From Caenorhabditis elegans (Eukaryota > Nematoda > Chromadorea > Rhabditida > Rhabditidae): a stretch of DNA of 64,000 nucleotides. Positions 14,370 through 64,000 of the stretch are shown piece after piece (the first letter of the stretch is position 1; the number at the start of each line of letters is the position of its first letter). The notes below the pieces were generated by a model. That model did not search any database and was not told the DNA's origin. It saw only the letters and a program-made list of their open reading frames with translations. The DNA is taken from the NCBI RefSeq assembly GCF_000002985.6, contig NC_003282.8:62001-126000 (forward strand), in the 5' to 3' direction. Made by a program: the position numbers and the translations under genes.

Positions 14370-48151
<33,782 letters not shown>

Positions 48152-50409: not shown

Positions 50410-52473
50410 TTATTGGAGTATATAATATAAAACATATCCAGACGAGCGGACAGCGTTGGCCACGTTTTCTTTCGATACATCACGTAATTTATCATCGGAG
50501 CAGCGCAGCCAGCCATCGTTGTCGAGCGATTTCTTTGTGTAGGCAACGTGATGTCCTTTGTTCGGCGAACTTCCGAGGTGACATACAACCGAAACCAGTG
50601 TATATCTTCTAGGAGGCGCATCGCCTCTCTGAAAAAAAGTTGTAGTTTACGTAACAATCACTTTTAGTCGTACCATATTATCCTTTTCGTGCAGCTCTCC
50701 GTGCATTAAACGCTCATTATTGTTTCCTTTTTGCGATGTCATTGTCGACTTCATTGAAGTATTCTTTTTCAATGAGATTGTGGACTCATAATGCATATGT
50801 GTATTTTTCAAATATAATGCTCCTTGTCTTGGTGGACACGTATTTTGTGGAGAATGAGGCATCCATCCACTATCTCCAAGATAAGTCATTATTGCAACGT
50901 TCAGCATATTGGCCATAGCAAAAATTTCACAAGTTGATGCCCAAACTCCTTCACGCATTACGTTGTCAACGTACTTTTCGTATATCTCATCATGACAGTA
51001 CTTTTTGAACTTTGGTTCATTCTTCTTGAGATGTTTGCCGACTGCTTCGCGGAAGATCATATGATGCGATTCCACTCCGGTAAGCCACCACGAAACTGCA
51101 CGATAGAAGCAATTCCCGTCGGCTTCGATTTTTCGTGTAACTCCAGGAAGCTGATACTGGGACATTTCTGATATATGCGCAACCCTTTCTCTCTTGAAAT
51201 GACACCTGAAATAAATATAATACATTTAATGAAAAGAAGATTTCTTTTATACGAACCGCTTTTGGTTTACACCATTTGCGAAGCCCATTCCAACAAGAGT
51301 GTTATCAAAATCCGCCATATTCGAGAAAACATCGAAAAATAACTGTTTCCGAGCTGTTACATCTTCTTGCACCACTTCTTCATCGGCTCCAATATGCAAA
51401 CGGGAATTATTCGAATGAGCATCGTTCTTGTTCAACTCAGAGCACTCCACTGGCATAAAGTTTCTTAACGAAGTGGCATCGAGTTCGAATGTCGGTTCCA
51501 CCCGGCAGTTTTTATTTTTCATTGAAAAACGACTTCCTCGTCCCTCCAGCTCATATCTTTTCAAGGTGACAACCAAACATCTGGAAAATGTTATTTAATT
51601 AAAAACAACTCAAACAGTAAGCTCCTACTCTGGGAATGTTGAGATCCTTTCGCAAACGAAGATATGTTGTGGTTGCAAATGGAGCACTCTTTCTCAATTG
51701 AAGACCATTTTAGCTCCGATGAAACCAAGTTTTGTACCGAACAGCCATTCCTGTAAATTAAAAAAACTTGGTCAAACGTCGCAATATCTTTCTAGATACT
51801 GTATTTATCTTCAAATCTAATACTTTTCCAGAATATAAATATTAATGGGTTAAATGGGCAGAACTTATACTAACATCACAGAAACCTAAGTCATTTCGTG
51901 AATCGGCGTTCAGCTCCTTGTTGTGGCATCTTTGGCACACATACAGTGTCTCCACGTCAATTTTGAAGACTTTTGCTGGATTCAGTGGGCTCTCAAAATC
52001 ATCGATCATCACTGCATTCTCCAAAACGACTTTCATTACATCATCAACAGCTCCGATTAGAGTTAGGAAAAACTCGTGAGCATCATGTTGGTCATCATTA
52101 TTGAATCCTTCGTGGATCTTCCCAACATTCCGACGATATTGGAGCAATTTCTTGAAAGAAAAAAAATGATTTGAAAGAACTATTTTGAAAGAAAAAACTC
52201 ACAGATGTACTAAGTTTCATGACCTCGTTCGGCTCATTCAAGTGACCCCCTAATTGTAAGCAGCTGACGATCTTCAAGAAGTTTCTAAGAACAATGTTGT
52301 TGTTCTTGATATCACATGGTTGCGTTTGATTGATGTTGAGGGAGTTATCAAGGAATCGAATTTTGTACCGGACCATACGATATAGGTTCTCACAGCGAAC
52401 AACCATCGGACCACATGATGACATGGCTTGCAAAGTTGAGTTATAGTAACACGAGTTCCCGGTGTTAACTAAT
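50410..52473 (-). CDS. deubiquitinase: USP domain with an OTU domain nested inside (5' end missing)
   Basis: Predicted to remove ubiquitin or a ubiquitin-like protein. Exons 5' to 3': 52473-52203, 52150-51875, 51750-51629, 51580-51257, 51205-50674, 50628-50410; about 580 aa. USP motifs in order: Cys box NTGNSCYYNSTLQAM, QHDAHEFF, one CQRC pair, FPECLVVTLKRYE, and in the last exon the His box GHHVAYTKK, then WLRCSDD and SGYVLYYILQ. Between LKRY and the His box lies an OTU domain (ADGNCFYRAVSWWLTG, EGVWASTCEI, THMHYES) with candidate catalytic Asp, Cys and His. The OTU exon joins the His-box exon in phase 0 through a 45-bp intron. Oddities: an in-frame TGA at 51694-51696, a weak GTTCGT donor after 51257, and no start codon found. 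It could be a working gene with different splicing or a young pseudogene. Possibly third in the grld-1/tut-1 operon. Confidence 0.72.
50674..51205 (-). other. OTU-domain exon inserted in the USP domain
   Basis: The 532-bp exon encodes about 177 residues. The OTU signature is KIEADGNCFYRAVSWWLTG, with later blocks VGKHLKKNEPKFKKY, REGVWASTCEIFAMANMLNV and LYLKNTHMHYESTISL. Asp and Cys of DGNC and a His in HMHYE fit the OTU catalytic triad. The last ~50 residues (KKNTSMKSTMTSQKGNNNER) look like a linker back to the USP fold. It follows a region resembling a degenerate UBA helix (LVGMGFANGVNQKR). Confidence 0.78.
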
Positions 52474-52675
52474 CTGAAATTTGAATTAACAAAAAAGACT
52501 AGCAAATCTGCGATTTGCCAGGCTTCGCAGTGGGGTGTGGCGTAGATTGTAAAAGTGCAAAATTTCTAGTGCTATTCAGTATTTGAACCAAAATATAATG
52601 GTGTTTTCAAGTGTGAAAAATAACGACAAATGCAACATTTCACTTTTTGGAAAGACGTGAATGCTCAAAACTTCT
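52355..52675. repeat. 321-bp direct repeat, left copy (target site duplication)
   Basis: Starts ATCGAATTTTGTACCGGACC and ends ATGCTCAAAACTTCT. It is repeated at 56511-56831 on the other side of the retrotransposon, with only two mismatches seen by eye. It contains the acceptor and first 119 bp of the USP Cys-box exon. Both ends of the repeat coincide with the element boundaries. Confidence 0.9.
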
Positions 52676-52753
52676 CTGCCGGGTGTCTCACTAGCGGGCG
52701 GTCGTGTGTTTTTTCCTCTCCTCTCGTCGTTGTAAATTATCGATTCGATAGTT

Positions 52754-53468
52754 ATGACGAAGAATAAAAACCAGGCCAAAAAACGCAAGCAGGGATCCGC
52801 AGACAGCGCAGACAGCTCAATGGCAACTAATCCGGTAGAAGAAGAAATGGTACCTCTTTCTGAGTTCCTCAAGCTCAAGGAGTCTTTCAACGCGATGAGT
52901 GCAAGAATGGACAAAATCCTGTCTCTGGTGGAATACATTATTCCACTGAAGACCCATTCGCACTCAGAGCTTGATATTCCAATCTCTTCTGAAAGCGTCG
53001 CCAACCTTTCCGACTCATCTTCTTCGTCACTCTCTTCTCTCAACTATTCAAAACATCCTACTCGTTGAACAGTATTGCTCGTGAGCAGCAAGCAATGAAA
53101 GATAAGGAGACACGTGCAGTTCTTGAATTATTACCGGATGACAAAGATGACAAAAACCAGGACGAGAAAACCTTGGCTATTATTAAAAGGTGGCTTCTCT
53201 GTACGAATTCAATCCACCTATTTCAGTATTCCGTCACCAGTGCAAATCAGTAATGCGTCCCCTCAAAATCCAATTTGACACCAAAACCGACAGAAACGCG
53301 TTCATCAAAATCTACAACAAGGTCATTAAGAAAGAAGAATTTTCGGATCTCACCAGAAAACCTAGAGCCAGAAGAGACTTGACGTTTGATGAGCTGGAAA
53401 CTCTGCGTGCTAGCCGGAAATTTATATACGATGAGAATGTGAAAGCGAAAGAAAGCAGAATCCGGTAA
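52754..53468 (+). pseudogene. retrotransposon ORF1 remnant
   Basis: The first part (from ATG 52754) is basic, then acidic and Ser-rich, with a short coiled coil (EFLKLKESFNAMSARMDKIL). It stops at 53066. Similar-style coding continues in other frames: SIAREQQAMKDKETRAVLEL near 53070-53190, then RPLKIQFDTKTDRNAFIKIY and RRDLTFDELETLRASR up to 53468. The last block resembles the C-terminal nucleic-acid-binding region of LINE ORF1 proteins. At least two frame breaks are visible. Confidence 0.7.
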
Positions 53469-53509
53469 CTCTTTTTTTCCCAAAAATTCCTTTAAAAATC
53501 ATTCTCCCA

Positions 53510-56340
53510 AATGTAGTGTTCTCCCAAATATTAATATTTTTTTTGCCAATGTTCGTGGTGCTTCTAGTCTTTCCAAACTGCATATGCTATTTGACTTCTT
53601 CCTGTCTTCTAATTTTGATTGTCTCTGCCTAACCGAAACGCATTTCAACAGTAGCCTTACTGATAGTCTTCTCTACTCTAAGAATTTTTCTTGTATTAGA
53701 TTTGACAGAGATCCTGACATGCATTCTAAATCCAGCGGCGGCGGCGTAGCTATTTTCTATAAATCATCAATTACGCTAACACAAATCGACATCAATATGC
53801 CACACCATTATCCACTTCACAGAGCTGAGGTTCTAATGTGCCTATTACACAGTGACACTTTAAGCAGTCCAATTACCCTTACCGTTGTATATAGACCCCC
53901 TGATCTGAATGTCGTTGAAAGCTCGGCACTGATCCACCAACTTGACACTTATCTACCCTCGACCCGTTCTATTTGTGTTGGGGATTTCAACTATCCCTAC
54001 GTTGACTGGTCACTTCCCAACCATCAGTTTGCCGCATTTCTGTATTCCAAAAACCTTTCACAACTAGTCACCTTCCCCACCAGAATTTCCTCTAGCTCTA
54101 GCACAATACTTGATTTAGTTATCACATCCAACGACATCCCCATTGCTGGCCCCAACCCGGAAACGCCCATTCTTAATTCCGATCACCATGCGGTATCCCT
54201 CTCAATTCTGGTAGACTATACAGCACATACATACAAGCCTCCTGCAGCTCCACGTCTTAATTTCAGAAAATGTGACTTTACCTCCCTAAATCACCACTTG
54301 GCCAGTATAGACTGGATTAATTTGTTCCAGCTTAACCCTTCAATCACGGAAAAATACGAGGTCTTTCTTGATGTTGTAGATAAACTAATAGAAACCCATT
54401 GTCCCTTAACAAAAACATCATCTACCTATCGCCCCCCAAATATTTTGAAAAGAATACGGAATGCCCGCAAAACCCTAAGTAAGTGTCAAAATTCCCCTGT
54501 TGCTAAATGTGCACTGATTAAAAAAATTAAAATTCTCATGCGCAAGCATAGAAACATTCTAAGATCCAATGATAAAGCAATAAGCATTGGTAAAGATTAC
54601 TCAGCTATTAGGAAACTTATCAAAAGTAGAACTGCAAAATCCAATGCAATTCCACCTATTTTGTTTAATAACCGAACGTGCATATCAGATTTGGAAAAAT
54701 GTGATATTTTTACAAAAATATTTCTGGAGAATTACTCCCCCTCCGTTCCTCCTTCACCCCACACGGACATTCCAAAAACAACTGATAATAATGAGATTTA
54801 TCCTGAAGACATTTTCCAGCCATTTATTGTTGAAAGTGTTCTGAAAAAACTTCCTCCTAAGCTCGGGTTTTCACTCCACCATCTCAACTTTTATATGCTC
54901 AAAAAATGTGCGACACCGCTCGCGTTACCCCTCTCTATTATTTACTCCCAGTCATTGAAAGAATCAACCATTCCCTCCATTTGGAAGCATGCCACTGTCA
55001 TTCCTATACCCAAAAAAGGCAACCCCTCAAATCCATCTAACTATCGTCCAATTAGCTTAACTGATACTATTGCTAGAGTAATGGAGAAAATTATTTCACA
55101 CCGAATCAAGTCTGAATACGGTCACCTCATATCCAAACATCAACACACACGGGTTCCTAAATTTTAGGAGCTGCAAGCCCTCACTCGATCTTCTTCTCTT
55201 TATCATTCTATACTCCATGAACACAAACGTCTGGATATTATATTTTTCGATTTCTGCAAAGCTTTTGATAAAGTCTCTCATGACATACTTATTTCTAAAA
55301 TCAAATCTCTTCGCATCAACCCCGTCTTTTGCAATTGGATATCCTGTTTTCTAAGCAATCGCACTTTCTCAGTCAAAATCAATTCCACAGTTTCCGCTAA
55401 TGCCCTCCCCATTCCTTCTGGGGTGCCCCAAGGAACAGTTACAGGTCCCCTTCTCTTTATATTGTTTTTGAACGACCTACTCCTATCCATACCCCCTTCT
55501 ATTCAATTTTCTTGTTTTGCTGATGATGTGAAAATATTCAGTCACGATCCAATTGAACTTCAAAGCACAATTGATCTCATTGTAGATTGGTCCTTGAAAA
55601 ATCAGTTGCCGCTTGCTCCCACCAAAACGGCCCTACTCCACATAGGAACTCAAAACCCTAGGCATAATTTCAATATTGACTCCCTACCCATCGTCCCCAG
55701 TTCCTCTGTTAGAGACCTCGGGCTTATCACCGACGATAAATTGTCATTCAAATCGCATATCAATAGAACCTCTTCCCTGACACTTCTTAGGGCAAAACAG
55801 ATCCTAAAATCCTTCCCCTCTGGCTCCATTAAATTCTATGTGAACCTGTTTAAAACGTATGTCTCACCAATTCTTGACTATGGGTCCCACATTTACTCCC
55901 CTCCCCCTCATTCAAAACTGTCAGGTGCATTAGAATCCGCTCTCAAATACTACTCAAGAATAATACTACAACGTAACAATATACAATACAAAGTATCGGA
56001 AACATCACATAGAAACACCTCATTAGTTTATTCACTTTCATATAAAAACCGCCTAAGCATTCTCAACATGGCCACAGCCCGCTCAACACGCTTAAAATCA
56101 CAGCTTATTCTCTTGTATAAAATTATAACAAGCGCTGTACATTTCCCAGATGCAAAAAGATTTATTATGCATGTCAGATCTCAACGTCGGCCGATGCTCC
56201 TTTCTCTAGTCAATCCAAAGTCCAAAGGTTTCTTTTCTATTGTCGTTCCCCTCTGGAACAGTATAGTTCACAATGTAGCAACATTCCTTTCCCCCTCCCA
56301 GTTTATGAACCTCATAAACCAACAAATCTCATTCTTTTAA
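53510..56340 (+). pseudogene. retrotransposon ORF2 (endonuclease-reverse transcriptase), broken
   Basis: The N-terminal AP-endonuclease shows NVRG, LTETHF, VVYRPPD, GDFNYPYVDW and SDHHAV. The reverse transcriptase follows: IPIPKKGNPSNPSNYRPISL, DFCKAFDKVSHD, SGVPQGTVTGPLLFILFLND and the catalytic FADDVKIF. The C-terminal part (KFYVNLFKTYVSPILDYGSH) is normal for the class. A frame break and stop near 55145-55167 separate the fingers region from the palm. The real start is upstream of the first ATG at 53584, because NVRG is encoded before it. Confidence 0.9.
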
Positions 56341-56510
56341 ATTTCTCGTTGATTTATCCTCTTCTGTCAAATAGTATTTAGTTTTTTCATACTTAAGATG
56401 GACTCTGACGGGTCTTTCTTATTTTTATGTGTTATTCGATTCTTCCCCGTTGATCTTCTATGTACTACTTTTTGTTACTATTTATCTAATTTTCGAATAA
56501 ACAAACAAAC

Positions 56511-56831
56511 ATCGAATTTTGTACCGGACCATACGATATAGGTTCTCACAGCGAACAACCATCGGACCACATGATGACATGGCTTGCAAAGTTGAGTTAT
56601 AGTAACACGAGTTCGCGGTGTTAACTAATCTGAAATTTGAATTAACAAAAAAGACTAGCAAATCTGCGATTTGCCAAGCTTCGCAGTGGGGTGTGGCGTA
56701 GATTGTAAAAGTGCAAAATTTCTAGTGCTATTCAGTATTTGAACCAAAATATAATGGTGTTTTCAAGTGTGAAAAATAACGACAAATGCAACATTTCACT
56801 TTTTGGAAAGACGTGAATGCTCAAAACTTCT
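56511..56831. repeat. 321-bp direct repeat, right copy (target site duplication)
   Basis: Second copy of 52355-52675. One of the two differences changes the Cys-box GGG (Gly) codon to GCG (Ala) on the minus strand. It keeps a splice acceptor and 119 bp of USP exon that is then cut off by retrotransposon sequence. Confidence 0.9.
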
Positions 56832-56940
56832 GTAAATGTGCTGAAGTTTGTCAAGACAGGGCAAATTTAATTTAATATTAAATTTAGAAATACGATTTCC
56901 GCTTTTCAAATTGCGCTTAACGGATGTCGAAAAATTCTTC

Positions 56941-57165
56941 GTGTATTCGGGCCTGCGGCCCTCAACCTAATTTTTTAGGCTCGGTATAAGCTCAACAGTT
57001 GTCCAACGCTTCTATGTGTATTCGGGCCTGCGGCCCTCAACCTAATTTTTTAGGCTCGGTATAAGCTTAACAGTTGTCCAACGCTTCTATGTATATTCGG
57101 GCCTGCGGCCCTTAAACTGATTTTTTGGTCTCTGAGAAGCTTAATAGCTTAATAAGCTTAATAGC
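56941..57165 (+). repeat. three tandem 75-bp units
   Basis: Units start at 56941, 57016 and 57091 with GTGTATTCGGGCCTGCGGCC (the third reads GTATATTCGG). The first two are nearly identical over 75 bp, and the third diverges after about 35 bp. Each holds the palindrome GGGCCTGCGGCCC and TTTTTTAGGCTCGG. A simple GCTTAATA array follows to about 57230. It lies between tut-1 and the USP-OTU gene. Confidence 0.8.
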
Positions 57166-57404
57166 TTAATAAGCATAAGCTTAATAGCTTAGCTTAATAG
57201 CTTAGCTTAATAAGCATAAGCTTAATAGTTGTAACGTAAATCCGATCAAGATTGCTGAATTTCAGATTTTTAAGTGCATTATTTTTAATTTAACTTTTGT
57301 AACAAGGAAAGAAACAAAAAATCGAAACAAAAACGAGCTAGAACAAGAAATATCACGGGGTTGCAATGGTGAAAAAAATTAATCAACAATTTTTTTTAGA
57401 AAAT

Positions 57405-59697
57405 TTAAAACTGCAAATCCTTGAGTCGCTGTCTGGTCTCCTCATTTTCAGCTGCATCTTCTGCTCCAGCACATCCACATCCTCCACCACCACCACCACT
57501 TCCACAGCCACCCTCCTTATTCAATTCATCCGCTTCTACCGTAACCTTCTTTGATTTTTTCGATTTTCTGACTCCCAAGTCGGTGTTTCCAGTGTTGAGA
57601 CCCTCGATGAGTAGACACGCTTTGCACAGCTTTTGGCTCGTCATGTAACCACACCTGGAAATAAATTATGGGATTTTTCTTTGGAAACTTATTTTTTGCG
57701 CCTTATTGTTCAAAAAATTCGATTTTCCCAAAAACATTTTGAAAACCTAAATTTTTCAACAAACGATTTACAAAAATCTTTTTTTCAAAGAAACGGGCAA
57801 GCGAGAAAATAAGAAATGAAAATTTCGATTTTTGACAAAAAAAAAGGTTTTCAGGATTGTTGGTTGAGGCTCACAATTTTGGTTGAGGCTCTCTATTTTG
57901 GTTGAGGCTCACAGTTTTGGTTGAGGCTCAGGATTTTTGGTTGAGGCTCTCTATTATGGTTGAGGCTCTCTATTTTGGTTGAGGCTCTCTATTTTGGTTG
58001 AGGCTCTTTATTTTGGTTGAGGCTCTTTATTTTGGTTGAGGCTCACAGTTTTGGTTGAGGCTCTCTATTTTGGTTGAGGCTCTCTATTTTGGTTGAGGCG
58101 CTCGATTTTGGTTGAGGCTCTCAGAATTTTTGGGTGAGGATTGGATAAAAAATTGAAGCGATATTCAGAAAAAAAATTGGTTTTAATTTTTTTTAAATAT
58201 AAGTTTTCAATGCTAAATTTCAAATTTGTCTTTTTTTTTTATTTGAATTTTTCTTGAAATTTGAAATTCATTGAATTTTTTTTTAATACATACATTCAGA
58301 AACATTAAAATTCAGATATTTTTTAGATTTTTCAGCCAAAAAAACTCAAATTCAAATTTAATTTATTTTTACCTCTCACAAATTTTCAACGTCGGCATTT
58401 CGACCTCCTTCTTCACGGAAACCTTCTCTCCACTCCGAATCAAGTCAAGAATCGCCCTCGGATGAACTTTCTCAAGATCCCGAACATATTTCCTCGCATA
58501 TCCTCGATAGGCATTCGGTGCGTAGATACATTCCGTATAGAAATATTCCAATTGATTTGTTCTCGCATACATCACAATATCCCTTTCAAAACAGTATTTC
58601 AGAGGTTTGGCACGTGGCAAATCACCTTCCTCTCCGGTGACAATATTCGTGCACCGCTCCAGCCGAGCAATATCACCACGGAGCACATTCATGAGTAAGG
58701 TCTCTGCCATATCATCTGCATTATGTCCTGTAACAAGTTTGGTGGCTCCGATTTTAAAGGCTCCTCGATCTAGAGCCTGTCTTCTGAATACTCCACAAAA
58801 TGTGCAATTATTCTTTTTCCCGATTTTCGCCACGATATCGTCCATAGTCCAACCGTACAGGTCACGATAGCTAAGAATTGTCAGTGGGAGCCCATATTCT
58901 ACACGATTCTTCTCCACGGCAAGCAGGGAATCGTCTCGATAGCCTTTGATGCCTTCGTCGATTGAGAGAAGCTGAAGATCGAGCCCGTAGTCGTGTCGGT
59001 CGTTGAGAGTTTTCATGACGTATGCCAGGACGGTGGAGTCTTTTCCGCCGGATGCTCCGATTGCAACACGTTCTCCTCGCTGGAATTTTATTGGAAGGGT
59101 GGCATCGAAATTTTATAAAAAAGATTATTATACTTTTTCAGGCAAAATCGAAAAATCGACAAAAAAATGTTCCGAAAAAGCCATAAAATTTTTGGTTGAG
59201 GCTAAGGATTTTTGGTTCAGGCTCAGGATTTTTGGTTGAGGCTCTCTGGTTTTTGGTTTTTTTTTTAAATTTTTTTCGTTAAAACTTCTTGAACATTCAC
59301 CCGAATTTCACAAGTTTTCTAAAAAGTTCTTTAAAAACTTATTCGCGGGAAAATTATTTAGATTTTATTGCTTTTTTGTTGATTTTCAACCGAAATGTCC
59401 AAGTTTTTTTTTTTGAAAATTTGATTTAAAAAAATCATTAATAGGTGAAAATATCAAATTTCCGACATTTTCACACAGATTTTCAGTTGGATTTTTTCCA
59501 ATTTCATGATCTTTTCTATCAAATCCCAGTACCTTGAACAGTTTATTGTTCACAATCGCCTCGTGCACATCGTCCTCGAAATTCCTGCTGAAACAGGGTC
59601 CACACAGCTGTGCTCCGTCCTTGGCTTTTCGGATTTTCGCTGGATTGGAACATCCGGATCCGGATTGGCACGGTGGGGGTCCTCGGCGTTTTTCCAT
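57405..59697 (-). CDS. tut-1: cytoplasmic tRNA 2-thiolation protein 1 (CTU1/NCS6 homologue)
   Basis: ATP-dependent thiolase subunit that, with CTU2, makes the 2-thio group of wobble uridine (mcm5s2U) in cytosolic tRNAs. Exons 59697-59533, 59079-58373 and 57654-57405 have phases 0 and 2 and give 373 aa, close to the family length. Motifs in order: N-terminal zinc-type cysteines (CGPCF), PP-loop [47 protein letters not shown] and the C-terminal zinc motif [16 protein letters not shown]. The tail is Gly/Cys-rich. The start is set by the ATG 10 bp after a TTTTCAG acceptor. Second gene in a likely operon with grld-1. Symbol recalled (F29C4.6). Confidence 0.95.
57850..58140 (+). repeat. TTTTGGTTGAGGCTC minisatellite in tut-1 intron 2
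   Basis: More than a dozen units of about 17 bp (TATTTTGGTTGAGGCTCTC) fill the middle of the intron 57655-58372. Same family and strand as the arrays at 59187, 60680, 61310, 62335 and 62965. Confidence 0.9.
59187..59255 (+). repeat. TTTTGGTTGAGGCT units in tut-1 intron 1
   Basis: Three units of the same minisatellite (GGATTTTTGGTTGAGGCT, one reading GGTTCAGGCT) in the intron 59080-59532. Confidence 0.85.
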
Positions 59698-59699
59698 CT

Positions 59700-59710
59700 G
59701 AATTACTCTG
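59700..59710 (-). promoter_or_regulatory. probable SL2 trans-splice acceptor of tut-1
   Basis: AATTTTCAG ends just before 59707, 10 bp upstream of the tut-1 ATG. It lies about 100 bp after the AATAAA of grld-1, the usual spacing for downstream genes in C. elegans operons. Confidence 0.6.
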
Positions 59711-59807
59711 AAAATTCATTATATTTTCTGAAAATTTGTTGAAAAAGAGGTATAAAAATAGATTTAAAAACACGGAATTTCAGAGAAAAATCGCAAAATT
59801 AAGCGGA

Positions 59808-59813
59808 TTTTTA
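59808..59813 (-). terminator. poly(A) signal of grld-1
   Basis: AATAAA on the minus strand, about 115 bp after the grld-1 stop codon and about 100 bp before the tut-1 trans-splice site. Confidence 0.6.
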
Positions 59814-59927
59814 TTATAAAAATTGGGGGAGATTTTTACTGCAATAATATAAATATCAATTTGTATGTGATAAAAGTGAGAATAAATTGTATAAATCGAG
59901 TTATTTACAAGCTCTTGGATGGAGATC

Positions 59928-61012
59928 TTATGGAGTTCCAGGAGCCCGGACGGCAAGAGCTCCGAGCAAGAATGGGCAATTCTCGTTGAAAACGTTCACT
60001 TGTGGTGTGAACTCGGCGAGCAGTTTTAGGGCGAATTCGCAGAATGGGAAGATGTAGAGAATGCCGCCGGGTACGGTTACAACGCCTGAAAATATTGAAT
60101 TTGTAGGTGAAACTTTTTTCTGAAATTTTAGGGCGTTTTAAGGGAATTGGAAAATAAATCTAGCCTAAAATTTAGAAAACTTAGGAATTTTTAAGGTTTT
60201 TCTATACTTTTACCGTATTATTTTTATTTTAATGCATTAAAAATGTAGAGTGTGCTTCTTTTTTGAAATTAAATTAAAAATTGTATATTTTCAGATAATT
60301 TTCACTTTTTTTTCAAAATAAAATTATACATTTTTTATATGAAAAAATATTTTTTAATGTTTTTCTGTATGAATTTTTTTCAAATAAAAAAAAATCAAAT
60401 TTACCTGCAGCTTCTTTATTAGTGAAATAATTAACAAGAGGTTGAAGATCTGAGAGTTCCTTTTTTCCAGTAATTACTCCGAGACTGAGCTCTTTGGAGC
60501 TACATGATGCCAGCTTGTCGAAGAGCAGATTTTGAGACGAAAGGCTCAATCTGAAACACTTTTTAAAATTGCTTTTACTAGTTAAACGTTGTTTTCTTTT
60601 CAGCCATTTTAGATGTATGCCTCTTAATAAAAAGAATTTCAAAAAACGGAATGTTCATTTTTCATTAAACTTTTTTTTAATGTGAGGCTCTCGATTTTGG
60701 TTGAGGCTCACAATTTTGGTTGAGGCTCAAAATTTTGGTTGAGGCTAACAATTTTGGTTGAGGCAAAAAATTTTGGTTGAGGCTAAAAATTTTGGTTGAG
60801 GCTAAAAATTTTGGTTGAGGCTAACAATTTTGGTTGAGGCTCTCGATGTTGGTTGAGGCTCGCGATGTTGGTTGAGGCTTTGATTTTGGTTGAGGCTCTC
60901 AGGAATTTTTGGGTGAGGCTCTCAGGATTTTGGTTGAGGCTCTCGTTTTGGGTGAGGCTCAGGATTTTGGTTGAGGCTCTAGATTTTCTTTTTTTTTTGC
61001 TCTAGATTTTTT

Positions 61013-61043
<31 letters not shown>

Positions 61044-63923
61044 CAGATAGCTCAGTCGGTAGTGGTGGCCGCTAGCAGTCTGGAGGTCACGAGTTCAAGC
61101 CCGGCCTCACCCCCTAGGTTCACCCAGCCTCTATTGGGAAGTGGAGCAATCCACGACTGGATTATCGGCCACAGTCCCCGGCTAGGACGTGGCTTAAATT
61201 ACAGCCCAGAGGGATCACCACCAGGCAGTGTACCTGAATCCCAGATCCGCAGTGCATAGCACTTGAAGAACGGATCGTCCTTTAATCCTTTAATCCTTTT
61301 TTAAAGGCTAAAAATTTTGGTTGAGGCTAACAATTTTGGTTGAGGCTAACAATTTTGGTTGAGGCTAAAAATTTTGGTTGAGGCTAAAAATTTTGGTTGA
61401 GGCTAACAATTTTGGTTGAGGCTCTCGATGTTGGTTGAGGCTCTCGATGTTGGTTGAGGCTTTAATTTTGGTTGAGGCTCTCAGGAATTTTTGGGTGAGG
61501 CTCTTAGGATTTTGGTTGAGGCTCTCGTTTTGGGTGAGGCTCAGGATTTTGGTTGAGGCTCTAGATTTTGGTTGAGGCTCACAATTTTGGGTGAGGCTCT
61601 CGATTTTCCGTTTAAATTCATTGTTTCATTCGTATTATTTATGAAAAAAAATTAAGATTTCGATTTTTCCAGATTTGAGTGAAATTTACATCATCCTAAC
61701 CTTTGCGTAATTAGCAATCTCAACGGAACATCATCCTCATCTCGGAGCAGCTTAACTGGCAGTCTTTCTGCTCCATAAACTCTATAGAATTTCACAGGAT
61801 AATCAGTCTTTTTCAGAGCCATTTTTCCACTCCAAGTAGCCGCATAGGCCTCCTCCAGCTCTGCAAAATTCCTAACAACATCCTTTGGTGATCCTGGCGG
61901 AGTTCTGACAGCGCTGGCTCCGACGGGCGATTTAGAGGCTCTGCGTTTTCGCATAAATTGCTGTTTTTCGGGTTGCGCCGTCAAATCTTTGGCGTAATCC
62001 ACCATAATCGGATGATTTCCCTTCGAAATACACGCTCCACGGAGGCTCCGGCATGCTTCTTGAGATGTGTGAGTGTTCTCGTAGACAACGTAGGCGTACG
62101 GTTGTCCGTGATCGTAGTCAATGTTCTCTACGAAGCCGAACTCGCCGAAAGCTTTCTGAAGGATCTCCTTATCGCACCAGGAGCCGAGGCCACCGACGAA
62201 GAGCCGGCGGGAGACTTGGCTTTTACCGTAGCCGATCTTCATACGGGAACCGCCTGCACGAATCGGGCGGTCTTGTTCTTCGGCTTTTGCTTGGATTGCT
62301 TGATCGACGGTCTGAAAGAATTTTTTAACTTATAAATGTTGAGTGAGGCTAAAAATTGGTAGAGGTTCAGGATTTTGAGTGAGGCTAAAAATTGGTTGAG
62401 GCTCAGGATTTTGAGTGAGGCTAGGGCGAGTTCTTGTTAAAATTCTATGAAGCCGCGAAAAAAATTCGGTCACGAACCTGAAACATGACAAAAGCGTATG
62501 CGGCGTCCGTATTGATTGGCGTCTTTATATCGACTTCTTCCACTTTCCCGTGCTCCTCAAAAACGTGACGAATCTCTCGTTCCTTCACATCCGACGGCAT
62601 ATTTCCGACGAAAAGCGTCCTCGTCGCCTCGTCGTCGTCCTGTTTTAGCCGCCACGTGGATGGTTCCTTAGTCGGGCGGCCCCGATTCCCGCTTCCACTT
62701 CCGCCTTCTCGTTTACTGTCGGCTCCGTGTTGAGCTCGATTAAATCGATCCGGAATGTATTTGCCCTCCTGATCACGTAGAATTCCAGCTGGATCACATT
62801 GAACACGCTTGCCGAGCACTGATTTTAGACGGTCCATTAAGGTGTATCTGACCTTCCGAGCACAATCATTTCTCTCGAAATTCACGTAGGCTAGGCGTTC
62901 GTCTTCTTCCGGGTTTTTGACCACTTTTATCTGAAAAAATTGGTATAAAATTGCGGAAATCTCAGGATTTTTTGGTTGAGGCTCAGGATTTTTTGGTTGA
63001 GGCTCTCTGGATTTTTGGTTGAGGCTTTCTGGATTTTTAGTTGAGGCTCTCTGGATTTTTGGTTGAGGCTCTCAGGATTTTTGGTTGAGGCTTTCTGGAT
63101 TTTTGGGTGAGGCTCTCTGGATTTTTGGTTGAGGCTCAGGATTTTTGGTTGAGGCTTTCTGGTTTTTTGGTTGAGGCTCTCTGGATTTTTGGTTGAGGCT
63201 CTCAGGATTTTTGGTTGAGGCTTTCTGGATTTTTGGGTGAGGCTCTCTGGATTTTTGGTTGAGGCTCAGGATTTTTGGTTGAGGCTTTCTGGATTTTTGG
63301 TTGAGGCTCTCTGGATTTTTGGTTGAGGCTCTCAGGATTTTTGGTTGAGGCTTTCTGGATTTTTGGGTGAGGCTCTCTGGATTTTTGGTTGAGGCTCAGG
63401 ATTTTTGGTTGAGGCTTTCTAGATTTTTGGGGCTTAGGATTTTTATATATATTTTTTGGACTTTTGAAGAATTTATTAACTTTTTAGCAACATTTATAGA
63501 AATCTAAGAAAAATGATTGCTTTTTTAATCGATTTTCGAAATATTAAAATCAAAAATTGGTTCAATTTCAGGAACATTTAGGAATTTCAGATTTCAATTT
63601 TCAAGTTATTTTTACAAAAAAAGTCGATTTTTTGCTGCTTTTACCTCAAACGGAGCATATTTCTTGAGCTCTTGTGTCAGATATTGCTTGATTTGTTCCC
63701 GTTCCAGACGGTCATCGAAGCCGGAAATTCGAAGATTCAGGTAGACTTCTGGTGAGTGGCTTCCGAAGCGTTCCCTGAACAAAATAGAGAAAATTATGAT
63801 TTTTTTATTGGTTTTTTGTGATTTTTTTCGGCAATTTTTTCTTCAAAAAGCTCCTTACCGATAATAACTGGAAAGTCCGTTGCAATTCGGTCGGTATTGA
63901 GGTCTACCGCGTTCTTCTGCCAT
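59928..63923 (-). CDS. grld-1: RBM15/Spenito-like RNA-binding protein with RRMs and SPOC domain
   Basis: Split-ends family RNA-binding protein of the nucleus; the worm gene is known for post-transcriptional control of the glutamate receptor GLR-1. Exons 63923-63859, 63774-63645, 62930-62478, 62311-61701, 60550-60405 and 60085-59928 have consistent phases and give 520 aa. RRM1 spans exons 2-3 (VYLNLRISGF, RLAYVNFE), RRM2 is at the end of exon 3 (TRTLFVGNMP, AAYAFVMFQ), RRM3 is in exon 4 (SRRLFVGGLG, YAYVVYEN), and the SPOC domain covers exons 4-6 (DYPVKFYRVYGAERLPVKLL, then SSKELSLGVITG, GGILYIFPFCEFA). The start is the ATG 6 bp after a TTTCTTCAG trans-splice-like acceptor; an upstream ATG at 63975 is out of frame. 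Symbol recalled (F29C4.7). Confidence 0.92.
60680..60992 (+). repeat. TTTTGGTTGAGGCT minisatellite, left block in grld-1 intron 4
   Basis: About 17 units in the 1150-bp intron between exons 60550 and 61701. The order of unit variants (AAAAATTTT, AACAATTTT, CTCGATGTTGG, GGAATTTTTGGGTGAGG, CTCGTTTTGGGTGAGG) is repeated in the same order in the block at 61305-61605. Confidence 0.9.
61023..61043 (+). repeat. 21-base G tract
   Basis: Uninterrupted G21 directly before the SINE. Runs of this length in C. elegans can form G-quadruplexes and are unstable without the helicase DOG-1/FANCJ. Shorter G/C runs are at 27786-27798 (C13), 28156-28167 (G12) and 41230-41243 (C14). Confidence 0.95.
61044..61303 (+). 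mobile_element. tRNA-derived SINE, about 260 bp
   Basis: The head is tRNA-like: box A TAGCTCAGTCGG near 61049 and box B GAGTTCAAGCCC near 61091, spaced as in a Pol III promoter. A tRNA-unrelated body follows (CCACGACTGGATTATCGGCC, GGGATCACCACCAGGCAGTG). The tail is GCATAGCACTTGAAGAACGG, then ATCGTCC and CTTTAATC repeats ending in T6. A second, 5'-truncated copy of the tail lies at 46870-46937. It is in grld-1 intron 4 between two minisatellite blocks. The overlapping 65-aa ORF is not a gene. Confidence 0.8.
61305..61605 (+). repeat. TTTTGGTTGAGGCT minisatellite, right block in grld-1 intron 4
   Basis: Repeats the variant order of the left block (60680-60992) over about 270 bp, so the two were one array or one was copied. 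The SINE and G tract lie between them. Confidence 0.9.
62335..62425 (+). repeat. TTGAGTGAGGCTAAAAATTGG units in grld-1 intron 3
   Basis: Four or five diverged units of the same minisatellite in the 166-bp intron 62312-62477. They are close to both splice sites. Confidence 0.8.
62960..63435 (+). repeat. TGGATTTTTGGTTGAGGCTC minisatellite with a 130-bp higher-order unit, grld-1 intron 2
   Basis: About 20 units of 19-22 bp in the intron 62931-63644. The phrase GGTTGAGGCTCTCAGGATTT recurs at 63061, 63191 and 63321, so blocks of six or seven units were duplicated as 130-bp modules. Confidence 0.9.
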
Positions 63924-64000
63924 TTTTCGCTGAAGAAATTCGAATTTAATTCGTTTTCGAGAAGAATCGGCATTTTTAGTTAAATTTCTTAGTGATTCAG

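Follow-up and report, generated by a model that had tools for sequence, protein, structure and literature searches.

Does a locus on chromosome IV of Caenorhabditis elegans encode one deubiquitinase with a second, unrelated protease nested inside it? Within a stretch of 64,000 nucleotides (C4:62001-126000, referred to as the window, in whose numbering coordinates are given unless a chromosome is named), deubiquitinase-like blocks run from 52473 down to 50410 on the minus strand, corresponding to IV:112,410-114,473, with an exon for an OTU protease domain lying among those of a ubiquitin-specific protease (USP). Comparison with related sequences indicates that this nested USP-OTU architecture is real and conserved in Caenorhabditis. 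The locus itself, however, is probably a 5′-truncated duplicate of the gene duo-1, made at the level of DNA, that was constrained for a long time and then decayed; it would probably yield no full nested enzyme, the intact DUO proteins being its relatives.

Arrangement of the chromosome IV locus

In total, six exon blocks with homology to a USP gene were delineated on the minus strand, with the OTU exon placed between the exon carrying the LKRY block and that carrying the USP His box. Exon 1 (52203..52473) includes the USP Cys box (GNSCYYN, 52460-52440; this and the following motif positions refer to the six-exon reading); its open reading frame (ORF) matched the Pfam UCH domain with an E-value of 2.1e-5, and its intron edges were retained in the alignment to duo-1. 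Exon 2 (51875..52150) contains the QHDAHEFF block (QHDAHE at 52090-52073; UCH, 2.9e-6) and the first CxxC of the finger, and is followed by the finger exon proper, exon 3 (51629..51750), with the second CxxC. The LKRY block (CLVVTLKRY, 51579-51553) and a linker make up exon 4 (51257..51580), the OTU domain (7.9e-14; DGNCFYR at 51120-51100, HMHYES at 50799-50782) fills exon 5 (50674..51205), and exon 6 (50410..50628; UCH, 4.7e-14) provides the His box (GHHVAY, 50556-50539), the CSDD motif (50502-50491) and the stop codon. The USP features (Cys box, QDAHE block, His box and Asp) thus occur in that order, while the OTU exon passed the curated cut-off of PF02338 (52.7 bits versus 23.3) with the OTU Asp, Cys and His all present. 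A preliminary description made from the DNA alone had reported these motifs, which were recovered at the same places and on the same strand. Chance occurrence was rejected on the grounds that the Pfam E-values are too strong.

Exons 51580-51257, 51205-50674 and 50628-50410 formed one open frame of 357 amino acids (aa), exon 4 joining exon 5 in frame and exon 5 joining exon 6 in phase 0 across an intron of 45 bp (50673-50629), as previously noted. The arrangement that defines the DUO class, an OTU domain lying between LKRY and His box and in frame with both, is therefore present at the locus. Assignment of the OTU exon to a separate gene was rejected, as it reads in frame with the exon on either side and the two domains share one record in ten database proteins.

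The nested OTU in DUO proteins

Alignment of the 357-aa protein to the C. elegans genome (100,286,401 bp, 7 contigs) returned eight matches, two of them from the window itself. The remainder fell in pairs at V:11,556,682-11,557,935 (59% and 65% identity), at I:10,464,606-10,465,978 (39% and 44%) and at V:5,904,333-5,904,819 (44% and 47%, USP parts only). The V:11.556 Mb paralogue is F38B7.5, for which the protein database lists both UCH and OTU, and was identified as duo-1 because duo-1 mutations are placed at V:11557570 and V:11556506 in the main text of PMC13012089. A duo-3 variant at I:10465587, listed in one table row of PMC4686824, identified the I:10.465 Mb paralogue as duo-3 in the same manner.

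DUO-1 resembles the window copy in exon order and in having its OTU placed after LKRY and before the His box, the pieces searched being 59-65% identical, but has an open finger exon, N-terminal exons and, according to PMC13012089, a meiotic role. In duo-3, pieces with the Cys box, QxDAHE, OTU and His box follow in the same order at 39-44% identity, this order being read from the pieces. The third paralogue, at V:5.90 Mb (L011 2833-4329), has Cys, QQDAHE, finger, LERY and His blocks with no OTU between LERY and His, which shows that a USP scaffold need not contain the insert. A USP-only tree grouped it among OTU-bearing rows, although placement outside them was not rejected (p = 0.127 in the approximately unbiased test).

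Both domains were found together in ten database proteins, all from Caenorhabditis, among them DUO-1 and proteins of C. briggsae, C. nigoni, C. remanei, C. brenneri and C. japonica. In one protein search, which scored the 7988 candidates sharing most words, both domains were present in 4 of 23 matches, the query rows P0001 and P0005 not being listed among them; duo-3 and the V:5.90 Mb protein were not returned by the protein-database searches, so that absence from that database means little. Both catalytic triads were retained in all 11 rows compared, including rows with just 26% overall identity to the reference. The nesting in sister species, singled out beforehand as a point on which the idea might fail, was thus found, and for the family the proposal of one polypeptide with two unrelated cysteine-protease sites is borne out by single records from several Caenorhabditis species. 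The arrangement was less novel than had been supposed: the family already bears the name DUO, which we take to stand for USP plus OTU domains, and database records list both Pfam domains. No description of the nesting itself was found among the titles and abstract openings retrieved from the open-licence PMC literature, and phrases aimed at it returned no paper, which is no proof of absence.

In DUO proteins the OTU enters the USP at the box 4/5 point. USP25, USP28 and other USPs likewise have a large insert there, albeit a non-protease one that mediates oligomerisation in USP25/USP28, as stated in PMC6509359. The nearest solved OTU sequences and folds are the OTU domains of OTUD1 and OTUD3, which, as solved, are separate domains that do not lie inside a USP. 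A first AlphaFold model, built from 5 rows, had a mean predicted local distance difference test (pLDDT) score of 41.7 and was usable for the OTU only. A second, built from 26 rows, reached a mean of 60.5, with its USP part owed partly to the 20 other USPs among them and its first 110 residues at about pLDDT 54-73. In the structure prediction, a check proposed earlier, the two USP halves of the family protein were predicted to form one USP fold around the OTU. For the DUO relatives, the domain order, one polypeptide per record, both triads, the insertion point and the USP fold around the OTU are accordingly features read from sequences and predicted models.

On this basis the intact DUO proteins would be USP deubiquitinases into which a complete OTU protease is set, by way of flexible linkers, at the box 4/5 insertion point. 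Their USP halves would close around the tethered OTU and leave two active sites on one chain. The USP site would then take off ubiquitin in general, while the OTU may make a further, linkage-biased cut on the substrate being processed. Chain editing, or control of one domain by the other, as suggested in the preliminary description, might also occur.

Published genetics bear on the second site. DUO-1 is termed an orthologue of USP26 and USP29 with a role in meiosis in PMC13012089, whose main text does not contain the term ‘OTU’ and describes a mutation, P771S (V:11557570), obtained from a screen and remade by CRISPR as me149. Missing from the F38B7.5 entry in the database (P0001, 781 aa) are the finger exon and 55 residues at the N-terminus, both of which are encoded by the genome (L009 3508-3630 and 1638-1802) and required by the published numbering; our DUO-1 model of 877 aa consists of this record plus the finger exon and the 55 residues read from the genome. 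Residue 771 of the model is the Pro of MHYEP, and its codon begins with V:11557570, which places P771S within the OTU domain, three residues past the OTU His (768); the USP and OTU cysteines are C278 and C662 in this numbering. Agreement between published and model numbering also gives independent support for N-terminus, USP halves and OTU forming one polypeptide in the authors’ gene model. The second lesion published in PMC13012089, V:11556506, coincides with the last base of the finger-exon acceptor in duo-1.

Pro occupies the P771 site in 10 of 10 other rows, Ser being found in the window copy only (n = 11). Ser after the OTU His is common in many other OTU proteases, and loss of the active site is therefore not asserted for P771S; the substitution may act on folding, or on the way in which the chain leaves towards the His box. 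The position of the allele nevertheless suggests that the OTU matters in vivo, and the view that the OTU part is needed for the meiotic role of DUO-1 is supported, though not proven, by the published genetics. A fuller claim, that DUO is a single chain with two unrelated active cysteine-protease sites and an OTU essential in vivo, and that P771S is an OTU lesion, so that upkeep of meiotic chromosome structure in the germline would need OTU as well as USP, is put forward tentatively, our confidence in it falling a little short of even.

Alternatively, the nested OTU could be a binding or structural insert and not a second working protease. The paralogue at V:5.90 Mb keeps its USP boxes without an OTU, showing the scaffold to be independent of it, P771S could act via folding, and in USP25/28 the insert at box 4/5 serves oligomerisation (PMC6509359). 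A mere scaffold, however, would not need the OTU Asp, Cys and His, which persist in 11/11 rows, some as little as 26% identical overall, and we consider this explanation unlikely, although it deserves some weight.

Probable decay of the window copy

Along the alignment of duo-1 with the window, exons and introns correspond, and the retention of introns indicates duplication of DNA and not of mRNA. Similarity begins in the intron immediately before the Cys-box exon and extends as far as the stop codon. In the window, tblastn with the F38B7.5 record P0001, the C. briggsae protein P0002 and P0005 (E up to 0.05) found nothing that matches the N-terminal region of duo-1, nor did the 5′ part of duo-1 match 52400-64000 (best E 0.33 in blastn and 4.1 in tblastn).

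With junctions homologous to those of duo-1, the window copy runs in one frame over 581 codons, interrupted by a sole internal stop, a TGA at 51696-51694 in the finger exon; an open frame from these splice sites was rejected for that reason. Two gaps relative to duo-1, one of 2 bp in the tail of exon 2 and one of 1 bp within exon 3, shift the frame over the interval that they bound, and the second finger CxxC sits in another frame. In duo-1 the homologous frame stays open across exons 2 to 5, the finger exon among them, its other joins being based on the record P0001 and adjusted exon edges. With duo-1-homologous splice sites, the USP boxes of the window copy do not lie on one ORF and no single polypeptide extends from Cys box to His box, though alternative sites could open the frame. 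The preliminary description had joined the two boxes in one chain, its exon list omitting the finger exon (51750-51629) in which the TGA lies; that joining holds for the LKRY-OTU-His-box half, and the two-site polypeptide is not supported at this locus. Frame shifts, TGA and missing N-terminal region together constitute disabling lesions when compared with the intact paralogue, as expected of a pseudogene.

Selection and invariant positions were also compared. Nei-Gojobori estimates gave a ratio of non-synonymous to synonymous substitution rates (dN/dS) of 0.34 between window copy and duo-1 over 528 codons (bootstrap 0.26-0.44). Eight other family members share 95 invariant positions. Of these, 87 were comparable in all three C. 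elegans rows, with 16 broken in the window copy and 8 each in duo-1 and duo-3. The USP-only tree assigned a terminal branch of 0 to duo-1 and of 0.66 to the window copy, in a tree of 10 rows with one starred inner branch out of 7 and a long-branch warning. Long coding constraint followed by relaxation, i.e. a young pseudogene, would fit these sequence comparisons, but is not certain.

Several observations weigh against decay. Within the range tried (donors 52000-51600, acceptors 51860-51582, introns of at least 35 bp), open GT/AG joins do exist: two of them leave out exon 3, and 114 include some middle exon. The dN/dS of the OTU core (127 codons) was 0.24, and of the 34 invariant positions in the OTU part the window copy breaks 4, compared to 3 in duo-1 and 2 in duo-3; the excess of broken positions thus lies mainly outside the OTU, which shows no clear sign of decay in its sequence. 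The Ser of the window copy, moreover, need not be harmful.

These joins, together with dN/dS values below 1 and the retention of both triads, are what would be expected if the locus were still a working gene, in which other splice sites skip or shorten the finger exon to give a nested USP-OTU that lacks full fingers as well as the N-terminal region. Each open join, however, uses at least one splice site that duo-1 does not, so that none has the full homologous set, and duo-1’s own set yields the TGA; the finger exon evidently matters in duo-1, its acceptor being the published meiotic lesion at V:11556506 (PMC13012089, main text), and the N-terminal exons were not found in the window. We therefore regard a working gene as improbable. 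Least probable of all is a start downstream of the TGA giving a short OTU-only deubiquitinase, in which the OTU would be complete and the USP represented by its His half, its cysteine being absent, since, despite the open 357-aa frame of exons 4-6, the lowest dN/dS in the OTU core and its slight decay (4/34 versus 3/34 in duo-1), the constraint also averages over the branch to duo-1 and an isolated USP His half has no evident use.

For the favoured explanation, that of a decayed duplicate, the following course may be envisaged. duo-1 would have been duplicated at the DNA level with its introns kept and its 5′ part missing from the copy, on which coding constraint would have acted during a large part of its history. 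Decay afterwards would have left the frame-shifted finger exon with its TGA and the Ser in place of a family-invariant Pro, and a recent insertion of a long interspersed nuclear element (LINE) would have duplicated the start of the Cys-box exon.

The LINE-type element (52676..56510, plus strand) encodes an endonuclease (Exo_endo_phos_2, 1.7e-13) and a reverse transcriptase (RVT_1, 9.9e-24), the latter divided between two frames. It is bounded by direct repeats of 321 bp, identical at 319 of 321 positions, from which the insertion appears recent. Both repeats carry the start of the Cys-box exon: the gene-proximal copy (52355..52675) contains the start of exon 1, and the far copy (56511..56831) a second start reading NTANSC. 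Repeats of this length around such an element (52355-56831 overall) are unusually long.

Neighbouring features and meaning of the nesting

Elsewhere in the window, a zn-ribbon_14 domain (PF16503, 8.1e-14) forms the end of the next gene upstream, at 57405-57665 on the minus strand. ORFs at 47054-47879 (minus strand) resemble by eye the C-terminal part of a hAT-type transposase. An ORF at 45769-46308 (plus strand) resembles, also by eye, a kinase domain of the protein kinase C type, of which it would be the C-terminal half.

As a pseudogene the locus is ordinary, and it serves as a caution, an apparent novelty being probably a decaying paralogue of a named gene. In the family to which it belongs, a protease lies inside a protease of unrelated fold with both triads kept genus-wide, which raises the question of why one enzyme should have two ubiquitin-cutting sites. 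With a published meiotic missense allele placed in the nested OTU, this question would be testable with existing worm genetics.
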